A stretch of DNA of 64,000 nucleotides from Ignavibacteriales bacterium. Lineage in GTDB: Bacteria; Bacteroidota; Ignavibacteria; Ignavibacteriales; Ignavibacteriaceae. The stretch spans positions 1 to 64,000 of the forward strand of contig JAAYVN010000118.1 in assembly GCA_012517155.1 (NCBI GenBank). The letters run 5' to 3'. Under the pieces are notes generated by a model that was given only the letters and a program-made list of their open reading frames with translations, searched no databases and was not told where the DNA came from. Shown in pieces: positions 44,735 through 55,372 of the stretch. Each line of letters opens with the position of its first letter. Positions within the stretch are counted from its first letter, which is position 1. A program made the position numbers and the translations under genes.

Positions 44735-44809
44735 CGGAACGTGGCGCAGCCCGGCTAGCGCACTTGAATGGGGTTCAAGGGGTCGCGGGTTCAAATCCCG
44801 CCGTTCCGA
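44735..44809 (+). tRNA. tRNA-Pro (anticodon GGG)
   Basis: A 75-nt cloverleaf. The acceptor stem is CGGAACG with CGTTCCG, the D stem is GCGC/GCGC, the anticodon stem CTTGA/TCAAG holds loop ATGGGGT (GGG anticodon, reads CCC and CCU), and the T arm is GCGGG-TTCAAAT-CCCGC. The discriminator is A and CCA is not encoded. The gene begins 1 nt after the merR stop codon. Confidence 0.95.
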
Positions 44810-44824
44810 CAACTTTTTATGTAT

Positions 44825-47800
44825 TTAGGCTATCAATTCCTTTACTAATCCACCAAATTTGCTATCAAGTTTAAATCCAAATTTATAGAAATACTCGGGT
44901 CTAAAATATCCGGTTGTCAAGTATTTATAATTCTGACTGATTTTCCTTGAAAACAGATCTTTCATTAGCAAATCACTTATCCCTTTTCCTCTGAATTTTC
45001 TATTTATTACAATTTTCTCCATTCTGATAGTTTCAGCATCTTCAACAAAGTAAAACAGTCCTCCGATTATAAAACCCTGTTCCGATGTCACGATTAAAAA
45101 ATGATGATAAGGCTTAAAGGTTACTTGCAGATTCGCATCTATAAATAGTTGATACAATCTGTTTATTTCTCTTGGATTTATAGGTTTTCTGATATATAAG
45201 TTGTTTCCCTCAGTATCTTCATACTGTACGACAAGATTTGTTTCTGTACCAGCTTCTGATGATGATTTAACTAACACGGCAGAAGCTTCAGGTTTGACAA
45301 ACGGGTAAGTCAATCTGGTTAAGAAATATTCTTCTTTCTCTGAAAGCTCAACGTGCATTTTAATATGGATTAGTAAATCAAGTATATTCTCAATACTTTC
45401 TTGCTTTATCCTTATTTTATTAATTAGATTTATTATCTCTTTTTTAAGCTCAGCCTTTGAATCTTCGAATACTGTTTGTAAATAAAACCGTATTCTTAAC
45501 TCTGGATAATCATTTTCGAAATTGTTTAATTGATATGTCTCATAAATGTCATTAATGGTGTATGCTAGAGCAATATTCGATGCTCCCTTATTGTTTGCAT
45601 ACCATCTTAAAAATCTGTTGATCGCAAAATAAACCTGTTTAGGCATAAACCCAACTCTCTCAACCTCATTAATGAATGACTTAAGTAATCTTATTCGTGT
45701 ATCATTTATCGGAAGTTGTTTCACCTCAGATTTTAAGTACTCACCGAGCATCTTAATTCCCAACTCCTCACCAAATGCATTAAGAATTCCAGAAAAAATG
45801 AAGTTATAATACTTCTCAGTTTTCAGGGTTGGAAAAATTTCGAATGTTGGATGAATAAATTGGTTTTCAAATGATTCCATAGAATCTTTAATTGATATGA
45901 ACTTTTCACGATTTGCAAAACTTACTAATCTTGTTCCTAAATGATAGTCATGCTCAGGTACGTAAAAACACTCTAGGTCAGGATTTGCAATTTTGTACTT
46001 ATAATTTGTTAATCTTATAAAATTAAAAAATGTTGCCGAACAATTCCAGATATAAAAATACCACAACAATAATTCTTTATCAGTAGCAGCTTGATTATTA
46101 ATTTTCTTAAATGATTTTCCAAGTTGTCTTTTAACAGTATCTGAAGGAATGTATTTAGTTGTCCACATGTCATGTTCTTCCCAAATCCCGCCAAAATCCT
46201 CAACTAATTCAGATAGAAAATATCTTGAACCCGCTAATATCATCCAGTTGATTTCTTCCAATACCAATTCACGTATATTTGGATTGTAAACGGTAATTAA
46301 AAGTGAATACGCACCTTGAAATCTTGTCTGTATACTCAATTTAAAGATCGCTCGGTTACTTTCGGTTCTATACACAGAAATAAAAATTCCGGAAGTGACA
46401 ATATTATTTAAAGATATTTGCACACCATTTGAAAAAAGGAAAACAGCTTCTCGAACAATATTTAATTCTTTCAATGCATTACTAATTTTCTCTCGATATT
46501 CCAAATTTACACTTTCATCAAATACTATCACATCAGACCATTTGTATTCTTTTCCAGTATCCGGATCTACGGCAAGCTTGGGATTCTCTCCCAGCCATTT
46601 TCTGAATCCAATTCTCATTTGTTTTCTGTTTTGTGCGGCAATAAGTGAGAAGTCCTTATTAACAAAAAGAGTTTCATATTTCGAGAAAACCTGCCTTATG
46701 TGAACATACTTGGTTGGATGACTTACTCCATAATTACAAAGTAAAGTAAATAAATGCGGAATTGCAGATTTTTTTATATTACCATCAACCGCAAAAGTTT
46801 TAATTAAATTATCTAGAACTTCCTCGATAATTCCTATTTCATTTTCTGACCCATGTTCAATAAAAGTATTAATTAATCCCTGATCAAACAGATTAAATAA
46901 TTTATCAAGATATTTGTTAAGTAATTCCTTAAACTCTTTTTCTTTTACATAAATAATGACCAGGCCGAATAATTCTCTTAATGTAGTTTGATTACTTATT
47001 TCTTTTATTCGGCCTAATAATTCTTTGACGATTTTAAAATAGTAAATATTATCAGTCTCAATAAATTGCTTTAAGAACTTTATACCAAGGAGATTAAATA
47101 GTCCATCCCTGGCATATAGAAAAGTAATGGCCGTATGCAGTTGTATCAAGGAACTTTTACTACGATCCAATAAAATCGTTTTCCCATTTTCATAATTTAC
47201 ACTTACCTCTACTTTATCAGTTTCATAAAAATAAGCATTCCCTTTTTGCCTGTCCGCTCTTACCCATTCAGCTAATTGCTCTCCACAAAATTCATATATG
47301 CTTTGATTTCCTATCCATAACAATGGATTGGTGATAATATCTTCAAGATTTATCCTGTTGTAAGTTGTCTTATAATAAAAATCACCAGCTTTGACGACAT
47401 CTGAAAAGTGCGGATGAAGCTCGATTAATAGTTCTTTCCCTAGTTTTGGAACAATAATACTATTTTCCAATTTAATTATATCTTGTTGCAAAAGCCCTTT
47501 TTCCTTTAAGAACCAATTTGGTATGTTTACTTCTATATCCCCAAAAATAAGAGTTCGGTAATTTTTAACATACATCTCACTTATTATGTTAATAAAATTT
47601 CTCTCAATAACCCATCGCTTTAGTGTATTTTTTGGAGTGATTTCTTCTTTTTCAATTGAAAAGGGGCGTTCAATTAATCTGTAATCAATTATTCTTTCAT
47701 GTTTCGGTAAAAATTTATTAACGGATACAATTAAACTGGAAAAAAGATCATGCTTTTGATTTTCATCATAATTTGCAAGTTGTGAATCTTCATTCGCATA

Positions 47801-49372
47801 TATTAATAAGGTATTATATGGTCTGTGATCACCAACAAGAAACACTTGTTTAATATACTCACTCTCCAGAAATAAATTTTCTATCTTTTGTGGTGCAACT
47901 GTTTCTCCTCTGGAGTTTTTATAAATATCTTTTTTCCTATCAATTATATAATGAAATCCCTCTTCGTCAATTTTCATAATATCACCAGTTGGGAACCAAT
48001 TATCACCAATGAAAGGTTGTGTTAAAACACCATAATACCCTGCTGTTACATACTGTCCCCTTATCAAGAGTTCTCCTTCGTTTCCTAACTTTGTTTCGAT
48101 ACCCGGAAGGGGAATACCTATACTATCATTTTTATATTTATTCGGTGGAGTCATCGTAATTCCCCCTGTAGCTTCAGTCATCCCAAAACCGCTTAAAAGG
48201 TTAATATCATAATTTTGAAAAAACTTAAATACGTCAGATGATAAATATCCTGCTGCTGAAAGTCCCCACTTTAAATTGCCACCTGTAATCTCCTTGATTT
48301 TGATTTGTATTTCATTTTTATTTGCAGTTTCCACATCAACTCTGTCACAAATGTAATCATACAATTGTACCCATTTTTTTGGAATGCTTATAAAAATACT
48401 GGGCTTTTCTGTTTGCATGAGTTTTATAAGCGTATCAATACTGGAATTATCTGCAAAAATATACTCCGCTCCCCAGAATATTGCTCCCATCATTTCGAAA
48501 TATCTTCCGAAAGTATGAAAAAGTGGAAGATAAGACAGAAATAAATCATTCCTTCCTATCAGAGGAAGTGCCAGAGCCCTTGCAAATCTCTTTGAAATAA
48601 TATTCATATTACTAAACATTATTCCTTTCGGTTCTCCGGTTGTCCCTGAGGTATACATTATCGTCGCTAAATCAAAAATGTTCAAAGGATTAATTGATTC
48701 GATTGAATTTTGTTTAGGATAATCTTCCTTTATTTCATCGTTTAACAATGGTATTTTTGATTCAGGAATCCCGTTACTAAGGGCAATTACTCTAATGTTC
48801 TCATTGTTAACGTATTGTGAGTCCTTGATTTTAGCATATAATTCTTTGGAGGATATAAAGAGCAATTTAGGCTTTGACTGATTTAGTATGAAATTAATAT
48901 GTTCTTCAGTAATATTCGGTGGTATAATGACATTTACCACTCCGCTATAAAGTGCGCCAAGATCAACAAGTGCCATCTCTAAACAATTTTCACTCAGTAT
49001 GGCTATCTTAAAATCATTCTCATAATTTTGTTTAACCCTGTAGTTAGCCAGATAAATAGCAATGCTTTTAACTCGTTCTCTGACTTCCTTAAAAGTGATT
49101 CTTTCTCTTGAATTCAAACTTTTGATATTGAAAAGGTATGATCCCCCTGATTTGTCTCCTCTGTAATCTATCAACTCTTTTACCCTGAACTCACTTTTCT
49201 CTAATAATCCAAAAATTAGCTTTTCCCAATCCTTATCTTTTCCAATCTCCTGAAATAAACCAGAATCCAATAAAGTCATTAAATAATTTATAATCTTCTC
49301 TTTGGTTTCTTTTGCCGGGTTATTATAAAGAATTAAACCCTCCTGGTACCTCTCATTCAGAGCTCTTCCCAT
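44825..49372 (-). CDS. Fusion: AMP-forming acyl-CoA ligase, unknown central region, GNAT acyltransferase
   Basis: 1515 residues, about 2.5 times a normal acyl-CoA ligase. Residues about 60-600 are a full long-chain-type adenylating enzyme: T-S-G-T-T-G-E-P-K-G (P-loop, near 240-250), G-F-G-M-T-E-A-T-G-G (A5), T-G-D-I-M-K-I-D-E-E-G (A7), D-R-K-K-D-I-Y-K-N (A8) and N-T-L-K-R-W (A10 Lys region). Residues about 600-1380 are mostly helical with one beta-rich stretch, and I cannot assign them. Residues about 1385-1515 are a GNAT domain with the acetyl-CoA loop R-K-F-R-G-K-G-I-S. One enzyme could activate an acyl group and transfer it, or the GNAT part could acylate the ligase lysine as in Pat/Acs control. 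AAAGGAA precedes the ATG. Confidence 0.9.
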   Translation of the reverse strand: MGRALNERYQEGLILYNNPAKETKEKIINYLMTLLDSGLFQEIGKDKDWEKLIFGLLEKSEFRVKELIDYRGDKSGGSYLFNIKSLNSRERITFKEVRERVKSIAIYLANYRVKQNYENDFKIAILSENCLEMALVDLGALYSGVVNVIIPPNITEEHINFILNQSKPKLLFISSKELYAKIKDSQYVNNENIRVIALSNGIPESKIPLLNDEIKEDYPKQNSIESINPLNIFDLATIMYTSGTTGEPKGIMFSNMNIISKRFARALALPLIGRNDLFLSYLPLFHTFGRYFEMMGAIFWGAEYIFADNSSIDTLIKLMQTEKPSIFISIPKKWVQLYDYICDRVDVETANKNEIQIKIKEITGGNLKWGLSAAGYLSSDVFKFFQNYDINLLSGFGMTEATGGITMTPPNKYKNDSIGIPLPGIETKLGNEGELLIRGQYVTAGYYGVLTQPFIGDNWFPTGDIMKIDEEGFHYIIDRKKDIYKNSRGETVAPQKIENLFLESEYIKQVFLVGDHRPYNTLLIYANEDSQLANYDENQKHDLFSSLIVSVNKFLPKHERIIDYRLIERPFSIEKEEITPKNTLKRWVIERNFINIISEMYVKNYRTLIFGDIEVNIPNWFLKEKGLLQQDIIKLENSIIVPKLGKELLIELHPHFSDVVKAGDFYYKTTYNRINLEDIITNPLLWIGNQSIYEFCGEQLAEWVRADRQKGNAYFYETDKVEVSVNYENGKTILLDRSKSSLIQLHTAITFLYARDGLFNLLGIKFLKQFIETDNIYYFKIVKELLGRIKEISNQTTLRELFGLVIIYVKEKEFKELLNKYLDKLFNLFDQGLINTFIEHGSENEIGIIEEVLDNLIKTFAVDGNIKKSAIPHLFTLLCNYGVSHPTKYVHIRQVFSKYETLFVNKDFSLIAAQNRKQMRIGFRKWLGENPKLAVDPDTGKEYKWSDVIVFDESVNLEYREKISNALKELNIVREAVFLFSNGVQISLNNIVTSGIFISVYRTESNRAIFKLSIQTRFQGAYSLLITVYNPNIRELVLEEINWMILAGSRYFLSELVEDFGGIWEEHDMWTTKYIPSDTVKRQLGKSFKKINNQAATDKELLLWYFYIWNCSATFFNFIRLTNYKYKIANPDLECFYVPEHDYHLGTRLVSFANREKFISIKDSMESFENQFIHPTFEIFPTLKTEKYYNFIFSGILNAFGEELGIKMLGEYLKSEVKQLPINDTRIRLLKSFINEVERVGFMPKQVYFAINRFLRWYANNKGASNIALAYTINDIYETYQLNNFENDYPELRIRFYLQTVFEDSKAELKKEIINLINKIRIKQESIENILDLLIHIKMHVELSEKEEYFLTRLTYPFVKPEASAVLVKSSSEAGTETNLVVQYEDTEGNNLYIRKPINPREINRLYQLFIDANLQVTFKPYHHFLIVTSEQGFIIGGLFYFVEDAETIRMEKIVINRKFRGKGISDLLMKDLFSRKISQNYKYLTTGYFRPEYFYKFGFKLDSKFGGLVKELIA

Positions 49373-49400: not shown

Positions 49401-49439
49401 TGAAAAAAGGGTAAAGCCTTCAAATTAAAGGCTTTACCC
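49401..49439 (-). terminator. Rho-independent terminator after citrate synthase
   Basis: On the minus strand a perfect 12-bp stem (49428-49439 with 49409-49420; GGGTAAAGCCTT / AAGGCTTTACCC) around a 7-nt loop is followed by TTTTTT (49408-49403). It ends gltA transcription 19 nt past the stop. The fusion gene begins only about 30 nt further on, so it depends on read-through or on a promoter inside this region. Confidence 0.92.
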
Positions 49440-49458
49440 TCAAAATTAAAACTATTTC

Positions 49459-50763
49459 CTACTTTTTGAATGCTATCTCCTCTAGCATTTCTGTAGTTAA
49501 AGATTTTGGTCTTTCAAGAGCATATCCTAGCGCCCTTGCCCAAATAATATTACTTGCCACGCCAAGTGCTCTACCTACTCCAAACATAACAGTATAGAAG
49601 TCATATTCCTTTATTCCATAGTGCCACAATATCACTCCACTTTGAGCATCAACATTAGGCCATGGATTTTTTGCCTTCCCTTGCTCTAATAACACCCCCG
49701 GTACAATTCTGTATAATTGGTCAACAAACTTAAATAATTCATCGTCTTTCATATATTTTAAGCAAAACTCCCTTTGCGCTGTATATCGTGGATCCGTTTT
49801 ACGCAACACTGCATGCCCATACCCTGGTATAACTTGTCCACTTTTTAGAGTTTCCCATACATATTGTCTCATTTCTTCGTCAGTTGGCGTTTTATTACCA
49901 ATATGCTTCCTTACATTTTGTATCCAATTTAACACTTCTTGATTTGCCAATCCATGCAGAGGTCCACTTAATCCGTTAAGCATACTGCTCATAGCATAGT
50001 AAATGTCCGACAGTGCCGAAGAAACTAAATGCCCGATGTGTGCCGAGACATTACCACTCTCATGGTCACTATGTAAAATAAAGTAAAGTCTTGATACATC
50101 GTCAAATGGCTCATCAACACCCATCATATGAGCAAAATTCCCTCCCCAGTCAAGATTTGGATCCGGATTGATAATTGTATCAGCTCGGTACTTCATTCTG
50201 AATATATATGCGGCAATCTGAGGTATCTTGGCTAACAAATTTAAGGCATCTTCGTATGTCGGATTCCAGTATTCATTCTTATGAATTCCGTTATGATATT
50301 CCTTCGCAAATAAACTCTCTCTCTGCATAGCTAAAACAGCAGCACTGAAAAGAGTCATAGGATGAATATCTCTCGGCATTCCTCTCAATAAATCAAAGAT
50401 ATACTGAGGTACTCTGCTCCTTTTCTTAAATTCCGAAATTACATCATCTACATCTTCTTGAGAGGGGATTTCTCCCGTTAGGAGTAAGTAAAAAAGTCCC
50501 TCTACATAAGGCATCTCTTTCCCTGCAGGTTTAGGGAGTTTTTCGATTACTTCGGGAATTGTGAAACCTCTAAACCGGATTCCTTCCTGAGGATCAAGAT
50601 AGGATATATCTGTTACCAGGCTTTTTATATCTCGCATTCCTCCTATAACCTGTGATATTGTTACTTCATCCACTTTCACATCCCCATATTCTTTTAAAAG
50701 TCTTTGGGTTCTTGGGCGCCATCCAACGATTTTTTCATGCAATTTCGCTTTAAGTTTACTCAT
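49459..50763 (-). CDS. gltA: Citrate synthase, eukaryotic/mitochondrial-like type
   Basis: 434 residues; condenses oxaloacetate with acetyl-CoA. The catalytic residues sit in H-S-D-H-E-S-G-N-V-S-A-H (first His), G-P-L-H-G-L-A-N-Q-E-V and P-G-Y-G-H-A-V-L-R-K-T-D-P-R-Y (second His), and N-V-D-A-Q-S-G (Asp). The N-terminal extension and these exact motifs match mitochondrial citrate synthases (porcine H274, H320, D375) better than the shorter bacterial hexameric type. AAAGG lies before the ATG. It faces the kgd gene across pdxH, forming a TCA cluster. Confidence 0.95.
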   Translation of the reverse strand: MSKLKAKLHEKIVGWRPRTQRLLKEYGDVKVDEVTISQVIGGMRDIKSLVTDISYLDPQEGIRFRGFTIPEVIEKLPKPAGKEMPYVEGLFYLLLTGEIPSQEDVDDVISEFKKRSRVPQYIFDLLRGMPRDIHPMTLFSAAVLAMQRESLFAKEYHNGIHKNEYWNPTYEDALNLLAKIPQIAAYIFRMKYRADTIINPDPNLDWGGNFAHMMGVDEPFDDVSRLYFILHSDHESGNVSAHIGHLVSSALSDIYYAMSSMLNGLSGPLHGLANQEVLNWIQNVRKHIGNKTPTDEEMRQYVWETLKSGQVIPGYGHAVLRKTDPRYTAQREFCLKYMKDDELFKFVDQLYRIVPGVLLEQGKAKNPWPNVDAQSGVILWHYGIKEYDFYTVMFGVGRALGVASNIIWARALGYALERPKSLTTEMLEEIAFKK

Positions 50764-51772: not shown

Positions 51773-54700
51773 ATGAAAAAGAAATTGTCAGAAAAAGATA
51801 AAAAAGAACTCGAACTTTTTGGAGCTAATGCATGGTATGTAGAATCACTAATTGAAACCATGAGAGAAAATCCGGATTCGCTGCCCGAAAACTGGAAAAC
51901 TTTTTTCAAATTAGCAATATCTGGGTCAAATGAATTAAATTTGTCCCCTGTATCTGAGAAATCATTAAAATACCCTCAGCCCAAAAACAACGACATGCCG
52001 ACTCCTATATTAGGTGGTTTTGCTCGGATCGTTGAAAATATGGAAAGTAGTCTTTCTCTTCCCATTGCTCAATCCCAGCGAATTGTACCAATGAAGTTAC
52101 TGGAAGAAAACAAAATTCTTATTAATAAACATCTTGCGCGAACATCTGACATCAAAGTTTCTTTTACGCATATAATCGCTTATGCGGTAGTACAAGCATT
52201 AAAGAAACATATTAATATGAATTCTTTCTTTACTTATGTCGAAAATAAACCCATGCTAGTTAAAAGAAACTATATAAATCTTGGTTTAGCCATTGACATA
52301 CAAAAAAAAGATGGAAGTAGATCCCTGATAGTTCCAAACATAAAAAACTCGGAATTGCTCACTTTTTCAGAATTTATCAAAAAATATGATGATCTCGTAA
52401 GGCGGGGGAGAAGTGGCCAGATTGATGTTACAGAGTTTTTAGATACTACTGTTTCACTTACTAATCCTGGAACTATTGGCACTGTTAGCTCAATCCCCAG
52501 ATTAATGTTGGGGCAGGGGAGTATCATCTCAACCGGAGCTATTCAATATCCACCGGAATTCACAGGTATGTCATTTAAGACCATCTCAGATCTTGGAATT
52601 AGTAAAACTGTCTCTGTTACGAGTACATATGATCATAGAATAATACAGGGTGCTGAGTCAGGTAATTTTCTTAAAAAAATAAACGAACTTCTTTTAGGTG
52701 ATGACAATTTCTATGAAAATATCTTATCAGATCTAAAAATTCCTTCAATTCCCGTCAAATGGCAAAAAGATTTCAAGTCTAGTAATCTCCAAAATTTTCA
52801 AGACTCATCAATTCTTGATAAACAGGCTAAAGTTCTGCAACTAATAAATATGTATCGCGTTAGAGGACATTTAATTGCAGATCTCGATCCGCTGGGTGCA
52901 AACTCTGTTTTCCACCCGGAACTTGATCCTTCGTTTTACAATCTGACTCTTTGGGATTATGATAGAGAGTTTATAACTGGTAATTTTTCTGGTATTGAAA
53001 AGGCTACTCTGAGGGAAATACTGGATATGCTCCAGAAAACGTATTGCAATAAAATTGGAGTAGAGTACATGCATATTCAAAATCCCGAAGAAAAACTCTG
53101 GCTTCAACAAAAAATGGAACCTATTGGTAATAGTGTGCAGTACAACGTAGATATAAAATTAAATATATTAACTAAACTTATTGAAGCTGAAGGGTTTGAG
53201 CATTATATTCATACAAATTTTCTAGGACATAAAAGATTTTCCCTTGAAGGATCAGAAACGTTGATTTCTATTCTTGATTATTTATTCAATGTGGGAGCAC
53301 ACACAGAAACTGATGAATTTGTTCTTGGAATGGCTCATAGAGGACGTCTAAATGTTTTAGTAAACCTTATGGGAAAGTCTTATGAATCCATTTTTTCTGA
53401 ATTTGAAGATAATTATGATCCCGATTCCAGGCAAGGTTCTGGTGATGTTAAGTATCACTTGGGAGCAACAGGATCATTCAAAGCAAATAATGGTAGATTA
53501 ATCAAAGTGTCTCTTGCTCCCAATCCAAGCCATCTTGAATGGGTAAACCCGGTCGTCGAAGGTATTGTGCGTGCTAAACAAACCAGAAAAAACGATACGG
53601 ATAAAAGTAAAACAATTCCGGTCTTGATACATGGAGATTCAGCATTTGCTGGTCAGGGAGTTGTGGCTGAAACACTTAATCTTTCACAATTAAAAGGTTA
53701 CCGGACAGGGGGTACTATACATATTATCGTAAATAATCAGATTGGATTTACCACCAGACCGGAAGATTCTAGATCGTCAACTTATGCAACAGATGTTGCA
53801 AAAATGATTCAGGCACCTATAATTCACGTAAATGGTGATGACCCTGAAGCTGCATTATGGGCTACTGAACTAACATTTATGTATCGGCAAAGATTTAATA
53901 AAGATGTTGTGATTGATCTTTTTGGTTATAGACGTCACGGACACAACGAAGGAGATGAACCAGGCTTTACTCAACCTTTGCTTTACAGTAAAATAAAAAA
54001 CCATCCTTCTGTACTTGAACTGTATTCAAATAAACTTATTAAAGAAAAAATTCTCTCTGAGCCCGAGATCTTACAGCTTAGAAAAAAATATGATGCTAAA
54101 TTAACAAAAGCTCTTGAGAGAGTAAAAGCGAAGAGACAGGAATTCAAGCCTGATACACCTCTGGCTGTTCGAAAAAACCAAATCGTTTGCATTCACAATG
54201 ATGAATATGGCGTTATTGATAATAACATTCTGAATGATATCGTAAGTAGATCAACTTCAGTTCCTGAAAAATTCGCATTAAATCCAAAACTTGAAAAATT
54301 CCTTGAGAAACGAAGAGAATTTCTTAATGAAAATTCTTTTGCTGATTGGGCATTTGCAGAGTATCTGGCTTTCGCCACATTACTAAAAGAAAATATTCAT
54401 GTTAGATTAAGTGGTCAGGACAGTGTTAGGGGAACTTTTAGTCAACGCCATCTTGGACTGACTGATATCAATTCAGGTGAAATTTACGTTCCTTTGAATC
54501 ACATGTATCCAAAACAAGCCCAAATCGAAGCTTTGGATAGCTCTTTATCAGAAGCAGCAGTTCTGGGATTTGAGTATGGCTATAGTACTGCGGATCCACT
54601 TACACTCGTAATTTGGGAGGCACAGTTTGGTGATTTCGTTAACGGAGCACAGGTAATTATCGATAATTTTATTGTTTCAAGCAAGGAAAAGTGGGATGTT

Positions 54701-55372
54701 TCAAGTAATCTGGTTCTGCTTCTTCCTCATGGTTTCGAGGGGCAGGGTCCGGAGCACTCCAGTGCAAGGCTTGAAAGATTTCTTATTCTTTGTGCGCAAG
54801 AAAATATTGAAGTTTGCTATCCTACATTGCCTTCACAATACTTTCATTTATTAAGAAGGCAAGTATCAAAATCGACACTTAGACCATTAGTTATTATGAC
54901 TCCAAAGAGTATGCTTCGGCTTCCGGAAGCTAAATCTCATAAATCTGAATTCATTAACAGTAAATTCAGAGAAATTATTGATGATCACCATATTTCAAAC
55001 TCAAAGGATATTAATCGTATAATCCTTACATCTGGAAAAGTCAGTTATGATCTCTTTGCATTTAAAAAAATAAACAACATTTCTGATACCGCAATATTAA
55101 GGATAGAACAATTCTATCCAATAAATGTAGATTATCTGAAAGAAATTATATCTAAATATTCGAATGCGAAGGAGATAGTTTGGGTTCAAGAGGAACCACA
55201 AAACATGGGGGCATGGAATTTCATTAAGGATTTTATATCGCGAAGCAAAAAAAACAATCAAACTATTAAATATGCAGGTAGATCTGCTAGTGCTAGTCCG
55301 GCAGTAGGATCATATAAAAAATCTGTACATCAGCAGGAAATGTTAATTGCTGAAGCTTTTGCAAAAAAGTGA
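51773..55372 (+). CDS. kgd: 2-oxoglutarate dehydrogenase, fused E2-E1 (Kgd/OdhA type)
   Basis: 1199 residues. Residues 1-40 carry the E1 N-terminal helix (G-A-N-A-W-Y-V-E-S). Residues about 100-325 are an acyltransferase (E2) catalytic domain with I-V-P-M-K-L-L-E-E-N, S-F-T-H-I-I-A-Y and the active-site D-H-R-I-I-Q-G-A-E-S-G. From about 359 (R-V-R-G-H-L-I-A-D-L-D-P-L-G) follows a complete thiamine E1: H-R-G-R-L-N-V-L near 522, G-D-S-A-F-A-G-Q-G near 620, G-D-D-P-E-A near 688. There is no lipoyl domain. This matches actinobacterial Kgd/OdhA (about 1230 residues). A separate lipoyl E2 and E3 would be needed and are not in the window. Confidence 0.94.
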   Translation: MKKKLSEKDKKELELFGANAWYVESLIETMRENPDSLPENWKTFFKLAISGSNELNLSPVSEKSLKYPQPKNNDMPTPILGGFARIVENMESSLSLPIAQSQRIVPMKLLEENKILINKHLARTSDIKVSFTHIIAYAVVQALKKHINMNSFFTYVENKPMLVKRNYINLGLAIDIQKKDGSRSLIVPNIKNSELLTFSEFIKKYDDLVRRGRSGQIDVTEFLDTTVSLTNPGTIGTVSSIPRLMLGQGSIISTGAIQYPPEFTGMSFKTISDLGISKTVSVTSTYDHRIIQGAESGNFLKKINELLLGDDNFYENILSDLKIPSIPVKWQKDFKSSNLQNFQDSSILDKQAKVLQLINMYRVRGHLIADLDPLGANSVFHPELDPSFYNLTLWDYDREFITGNFSGIEKATLREILDMLQKTYCNKIGVEYMHIQNPEEKLWLQQKMEPIGNSVQYNVDIKLNILTKLIEAEGFEHYIHTNFLGHKRFSLEGSETLISILDYLFNVGAHTETDEFVLGMAHRGRLNVLVNLMGKSYESIFSEFEDNYDPDSRQGSGDVKYHLGATGSFKANNGRLIKVSLAPNPSHLEWVNPVVEGIVRAKQTRKNDTDKSKTIPVLIHGDSAFAGQGVVAETLNLSQLKGYRTGGTIHIIVNNQIGFTTRPEDSRSSTYATDVAKMIQAPIIHVNGDDPEAALWATELTFMYRQRFNKDVVIDLFGYRRHGHNEGDEPGFTQPLLYSKIKNHPSVLELYSNKLIKEKILSEPEILQLRKKYDAKLTKALERVKAKRQEFKPDTPLAVRKNQIVCIHNDEYGVIDNNILNDIVSRSTSVPEKFALNPKLEKFLEKRREFLNENSFADWAFAEYLAFATLLKENIHVRLSGQDSVRGTFSQRHLGLTDINSGEIYVPLNHMYPKQAQIEALDSSLSEAAVLGFEYGYSTADPLTLVIWEAQFGDFVNGAQVIIDNFIVSSKEKWDVSSNLVLLLPHGFEGQGPEHSSARLERFLILCAQENIEVCYPTLPSQYFHLLRRQVSKSTLRPLVIMTPKSMLRLPEAKSHKSEFINSKFREIIDDHHISNSKDINRIILTSGKVSYDLFAFKKINNISDTAILRIEQFYPINVDYLKEIISKYSNAKEIVWVQEEPQNMGAWNFIKDFISRSKKNNQTIKYAGRSASASPAVGSYKKSVHQQEMLIAEAFAKK

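Follow-up and report, generated by a model that had tools for sequence, protein, structure and literature searches.

The DNA analysed here, referred to as the window, is a stretch of 64,000 nucleotides from an Ignavibacteriales bacterium (contig JAAYVN010000118.1). On its reverse strand, a single uninterrupted reading frame with an ATG start codon (positions 44825-49372) specifies a fusion protein of 1515 amino acids. According to Pfam, the deduced protein comprises a complete ligase forming adenosine monophosphate (AMP), represented by the models AMP-binding and AMP-binding_C_3, followed by a middle region of about 780 residues and a C-terminal GNAT domain. This composition agrees with a preliminary description made from the sequence alone, which had read the protein as a ligase and a GNAT acyltransferase joined by a region of no known family. 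A match that would assign residues 604-1380 to a family was sought in Pfam, NCBIfam, PHROGs and PADLOC, and none was found. The full-length architecture is kept without internal stop codons in many genomes; because of this conservation the frame is not regarded as an artefact, and an assembly chimera or a frame open by chance was ruled out by its recurrence in dozens of genomes. The coordinates of the individual features are compiled in Table 1.

Table 1. Features of the fusion gene and its upstream flank (positions in the window; residues of the fusion protein)
Feature	Position	Strand	Evidence or remark
N-terminal extension, residues 1-87	49112..49372	-	poorly conserved; main-clade identity 25%
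AMP-binding (adenylation) large domain, residues 88-447	48032..49111	-	PF00501, E 4.8e-60; conserved motifs TSGTTGEPKG and GFGMTE
Ligase C-terminal domain, residues 486-603	47564..47917	-	PF23562 AMP-binding_C_3, E 1e-12
A10 motif K-N-T-L-K-R, residues 581-586	47615..47632	-	K581 and R586 invariant, 53/53 homologues
Beta-rich middle part, residues 606-735, no family	47168..47557	-	AlphaFold2 secondary structure; boundary approximate
Helical middle part, residues about 736-930, no family	46583..47167	-	AlphaFold2 model
Predicted kinase-like fold lacking conserved catalytic residues, residues about 952-1243	45644..46519	-	AlphaFold2 model m3a634ff7ccd2, Foldseek, VIA
Equivalent of the kinase catalytic loop D-x4-N, N-P-D-L-E-C, residues 1130-1135	45968..45985	-	order of secondary structure
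Helices between kinase-like fold and GNAT, residues about 1244-1362	45287..45643	-	AlphaFold2 models
GNAT domain, residues about 1380-1515	44828..45235	-	VIA structure matches; Pfam GNAT models in 38/38 homologues
GNAT coenzyme A loop R-G-K-G-I-S, residues 1461-1466	44975..44992	-	residue counts over 53 homologues
Upstream citrate synthase gene	49459..50763	-	neighbour; not shown to belong to the system
Terminator-like hairpin between citrate synthase and fusion gene	49407..49441	-	16 pairs followed by a T run; strong in the window

The ligase half contains the P-loop TSGTTGxPKG and the motifs GFGMTE (GxTE), TGD and DRxK, all of which are conserved among the homologues. Its A10 region reads T-P-K581-N-T583-L-K-R586. 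The place of the usual A10 lysine is thus occupied by Thr583, and the invariant lysine stands two residues upstream; position 583 is threonine or serine in each of the 53 diverse homologues in which K581 and R586 are fixed. The LKR-type lysine of the preliminary description was therefore correct with regard to the A10-like motif but not with regard to the lysine that is conserved. A paralogue of 603 amino acids encoded in the same genome has its lysine at the place of residue 583 (TPTLKIRR). The standalone ligases of related genomes mostly show T-P-T/S-x-K, and three of them (L159, L163 and L177) show T-P-K-x-S. Alignments to a carboxylic acid reductase and to the paralogue had raised the suspicion that the ligase is dead by loss of the A10 lysine, which was dropped because standalone relatives share the K-x-S register. 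Since the same swap occurs in these three proteins, the comparison suggests that the lysine has moved rather than been lost. The observations are most simply read as a lysine that may take either of two places, two residues apart, in a ligase that is intact. Among the standalone long-chain ligases, the two alternative places resemble a naturally occurring change of register by a catalytic residue.

The C-terminal half was assigned by sequence and by predicted structure. The Pfam GNAT model matched residues 1418-1501 weakly in the window protein alone (1.8e-4) and was found in all 38 aligned homologues, with a best value of 9e-10. Comparison of the AlphaFold2 model with solved structures by VIA yielded YhbS (Z 16.0, root-mean-square deviation 1.9, 133 aligned residues), GCN5 (Z 15.3), Naa40 (Z 14.4) and Streptomyces lividans Pat (Z 13.4). 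The acetyl-coenzyme A (acetyl-CoA) loop noticed in the preliminary description was recovered in this fold: the segment R-G-K-G-I-S corresponds to the pattern R/Q-x-x-G-x-G/A with serine at the last place, R1461 and G1464 are each present in 50 of 53 homologues, and position 1466 is serine or glycine in 52 of 53. Within the main clade of homologues, to which the window protein belongs, identity to the window protein amounts to 54% for the GNAT domain, 53% for the ligase and 27-37% for the middle region. The equal conservation of GNAT and ligase in this clade makes it probable that both ends are active and that the clade of the window has a functional GNAT.

The middle region was examined by structure prediction. 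An AlphaFold2 model of residues 590-1515, with a predicted local distance difference test score (pLDDT) of 86, revealed the beta-rich part, the helical part, which is the least conserved segment apart from the N-terminus, a mixed domain and the GNAT domain. Foldseek searches with this model gave Vps34 as the best match (E 2.4e-5) as well as tyrosine kinases. When the mixed domain was modelled alone (residues 928-1372, pLDDT 90), the top Foldseek matches were the PAN3 pseudokinase (E 1.8e-5) and JAK1 in a list full of kinases, and VIA-align returned PsiK (Z 12.8 over 243 residues) and Bud32 (Z 12.6) along with PRPK, choline kinase, Rio1 and methylthioribose kinase. Since kinase-like folds fill the match lists, the predicted kinase-like fold of the mixed domain is well supported, which bears out an earlier impression of a kinase-like lobe devoid of a catalytic motif. 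Placed by the order of secondary structure elements and not by superposed coordinates, the catalytic-loop aspartate (position 1130) is aspartate in 18 of 53 homologues and asparagine in the window protein, the loop asparagine (position 1135) is present in 48 of 53 and replaced by cysteine in the window protein, the beta 3 strand (1021-1029) lacks a conserved lysine, and the DFG region (1149-1154) lacks a conserved aspartate, with Ser1151 kept in 51 of 53. Asp1142, located in the hairpin after the catalytic-loop place, is nearly fixed. Because asparagine and cysteine stand at the two catalytic-loop places in the window protein and neither the lysine nor the DFG aspartate is conserved, the middle region looks like a pseudokinase.

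The overall fold of residues about 952-1243 resembles that of protein-kinase-like proteins (Bud32/PRPK, choline kinase, PsiK and Rio1) and of the pseudokinases PAN3 and JAK2 JH2, with Z values of 10-12.8 over 180-243 residues, whereas the catalytic residues are not conserved and a sequence relation is undetectable. Accordingly, a profile of 38 sequences gave no convincing E-value against solved structures outside the GNAT domain. Homology to aminoglycoside phosphotransferase (APH) kinases was considered and rejected by profile comparison: the Pfam model PF01636 had no match among the scanned homologues, and hhalign assigned a probability under 1% to the comparison of the profile, a shallow alignment, with the APH kinases of relatives. 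We infer that the middle region is not a kinase, and it probably serves as a scaffold or sensor.

The distribution of the architecture was determined at several levels. A first scan, able to detect only close relatives, covered 84,980 genomes and yielded 20 loci labelled Ignavibacteriae, Melioribacteraceae, Bacteroidetes or Caldithrix; most of them hold the entire C-terminal 910 residues, and two are cut by contig ends. A profile search across genomes, proposed in the preliminary description as a check, recovered the architecture in the class of the window, where 54 of 391 genomes gave long matches and the other seven of the 61 matches are short and mostly confined to GNAT, and in 10 of 82 genomes of the Calditrichota, the phylum of the Caldithrix locus. 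Among 296 genomes sampled across the phylum of the window, long matches were restricted to its class, and those elsewhere were short GNAT or repeat-like ones. Where the contigs permit, the frame comprises 1500-1650 codons with the ligase first. The middle region was not found without the ligase in the 296 phylum and 391 class genomes, and no relatives were present in plasmids or viral contigs. The ligase parts of the fusions form one clade apart from the standalone ligases (FastTree support 0.68, long stem), and this clustering is consistent with one origin of the fusion.

A comparison with known systems indicated that the two end domains are of known kinds; what appears new is their combination with a kinase-like fold of lost catalytic residues between them. 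The ligase resembles long-chain acyl-CoA synthetases of the AMP-binding_C_3 type (FadD15- or FadD11-like) in motif order and in the succession of AMP-binding and C-terminal domain; it is 40% identical to the standalone paralogue of the same genome over residues 351-602 and shares the K-x-S register with some standalone members of this type. It differs from them by its own signatures HTFGR and GFGMTEATGG, by 900 extra fused residues and by its separate clade. Carboxylic acid reductases, the second-best match among solved structures by sequence, likewise join an AMP-forming ligase to downstream domains. They continue into carrier and reductase domains, neither of which was found in the fusion protein by Pfam. 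The Pat/PatZ proteins are alike in that a GNAT domain is part of a large multi-domain protein tied functionally to acyl-CoA ligases, and the GNAT fold of S. lividans Pat is among the structure matches. ADP-forming acyl-CoA synthetases are relatives of the large domain of Pat. Pat itself has two domains, GNAT and a large, probably regulatory one, and acts on separate AMP-forming ligases (PMC4053389); in the fusion, by contrast, an AMP-forming ligase with conserved motifs resides in the same chain as the GNAT domain. The architecture is described in none of the literature searched, with most subscription journals outside this scope, nor is it named in the family libraries. With the fusion, a conserved architecture of about 1500-1600 residues joins the known enzymes, one that has no name in the libraries searched and in which a kinase-like fold without conserved catalytic residues sits between a fatty-acid ligase and an acyltransferase.

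As a first choice, held tentatively and at somewhat less than an even chance, the fusion protein is explained as a multi-domain enzyme of single origin that activates and transfers an acyl group around a non-catalytic middle. The long-chain-type ligase would turn a carboxylic acid into an acyl-AMP and then into an acyl-CoA; the beta-rich part, the helical part and the pseudokinase-like fold would form a scaffold binding a partner or a small-molecule substrate; and the GNAT domain would move the acyl group from CoA onto an amine of a metabolite, lipid or protein. Whether the chain works as an all-in-one N-acylation machine, with the GNAT domain using ligase-made acyl-CoA to acylate an amine substrate or a partner protein held by the former kinase fold, is more doubtful; from such a machine, Ignavibacteria and Calditrichota would gain an acylated product, be it metabolite, lipid or protein, that has yet to be described. 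Coupled ends would make the protein one of two things, a ligase that controls itself or an acylation machine in a single chain.

Several observations weigh against the activate-and-transfer explanation. The coupling of both activities in this order is inferred from the fusion alone, and the gene context yields no pathway. In the deep branches (f3, f11 and f51), identity to the window protein is 38-41% for the ligase and falls to 20-30% for the GNAT domain. The preliminary description had made its reading depend on GNAT features being kept across homologues, and this holds for the main clade only: Tyr1496, in the C-terminal FYKFGF segment, occurs in 39 of 53 homologues but not in the deep branches, a few members of which (L064 and L111) have also lost the arginine of the CoA loop. 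The GNAT function may thus have changed or weakened outside the main clade, and, given this divergence and the loss of the tyrosine, the ancestral role shared by all may have been something other than transfer.

The second choice, somewhat less likely than the first, is a self-regulating ligase, in which the GNAT domain acetylates or acylates K581 of its own A10 region, or the lysine of other ligases, in the manner of Pat, with the middle as sensor and a sirtuin reversing the modification. Pat enzymes are known to acetylate the active-site lysine of AMP-forming ligases and to silence them in this way (PMC4053389), and the invariance of K581 would fit a regulatory target of this kind. The structure match to S. 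lividans Pat points in the same direction, yet many other GNATs match at least as well. The genome has a Sir2 gene, but so do 39 of 41 relatives, whether they carry the fusion or not, so that no link between the two can be drawn; moreover, the lysine stands in the shifted K-x-S/T register, and in known cases Pat and the ligase that it targets are separate proteins. Less probable still is a protein in which the ligase alone is catalytic and the pseudokinase-like and GNAT folds act as allosteric sensors binding acyl-CoA, acetyl-CoA or a nucleotide. In the deep branches the ligase is indeed better conserved than any other part, and the GNAT tyrosine is lost there along with, in L064 and L111, the CoA-loop arginine, but the GNAT domain of the main clade is constrained like the ligase. 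An active atypical kinase working on the acylated product is very improbable, since the proximity of the fold to small-molecule and atypical kinases (PsiK, choline kinase and Bud32), the partial retention of aspartate and asparagine in the catalytic loop and the nearly fixed Asp1142 are opposed by both substitutions in the window protein, the unconserved lysine and DFG-place aspartate and the lack of a profile match to APH-type kinases.

With respect to the gene neighbourhood, 20 main-clade loci have sufficient flanking sequence, and 14 of them, the window included, carry a citrate synthase gene immediately upstream and in the orientation of the fusion gene. Terminator-like hairpins were detected in 11 of the 14 intervening gaps by a loose criterion applied without a shuffle control for those gaps. 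An operon with citrate synthase was considered in view of the frequent adjacency; because of the hairpins in most gaps, co-transcription is unlikely, and the arrangement was treated as synteny. Two Calditrichota loci carry a citrate-synthase-like gene beside the fusion on the opposite strand (L109:4718-6103 and L108:3112-4359, with 47% and 27% identity to that of the window, respectively). The genes beyond citrate synthase vary, with squalene genes in some loci and a metallo-hydrolase in others. A pathway was also sought among the neighbours (squalene, pyrimidine/purine, esterase and PAP2 genes), which proved to be lineage-specific with none in common. In seven loci of one family, including L112:2748-4494 (reverse strand), a conserved run of genes for a putative esterase, a PAP2_C protein and a small unassigned protein lies downstream of the fusion; the PAP2_C protein is a sphingomyelin-synthase-like phosphatase. 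In the window, the fusion gene is followed, just past its 3' end, by a tRNA gene in the opposite orientation (44735-44809, forward strand, Rfam RF00005). Positions 51773-55372 of the forward strand encode a protein of 1199 amino acids that reads as a putative 2-oxoglutarate dehydrogenase E1 component behind a fused acyltransferase (E2) catalytic domain, similar to mycobacterial Kgd.

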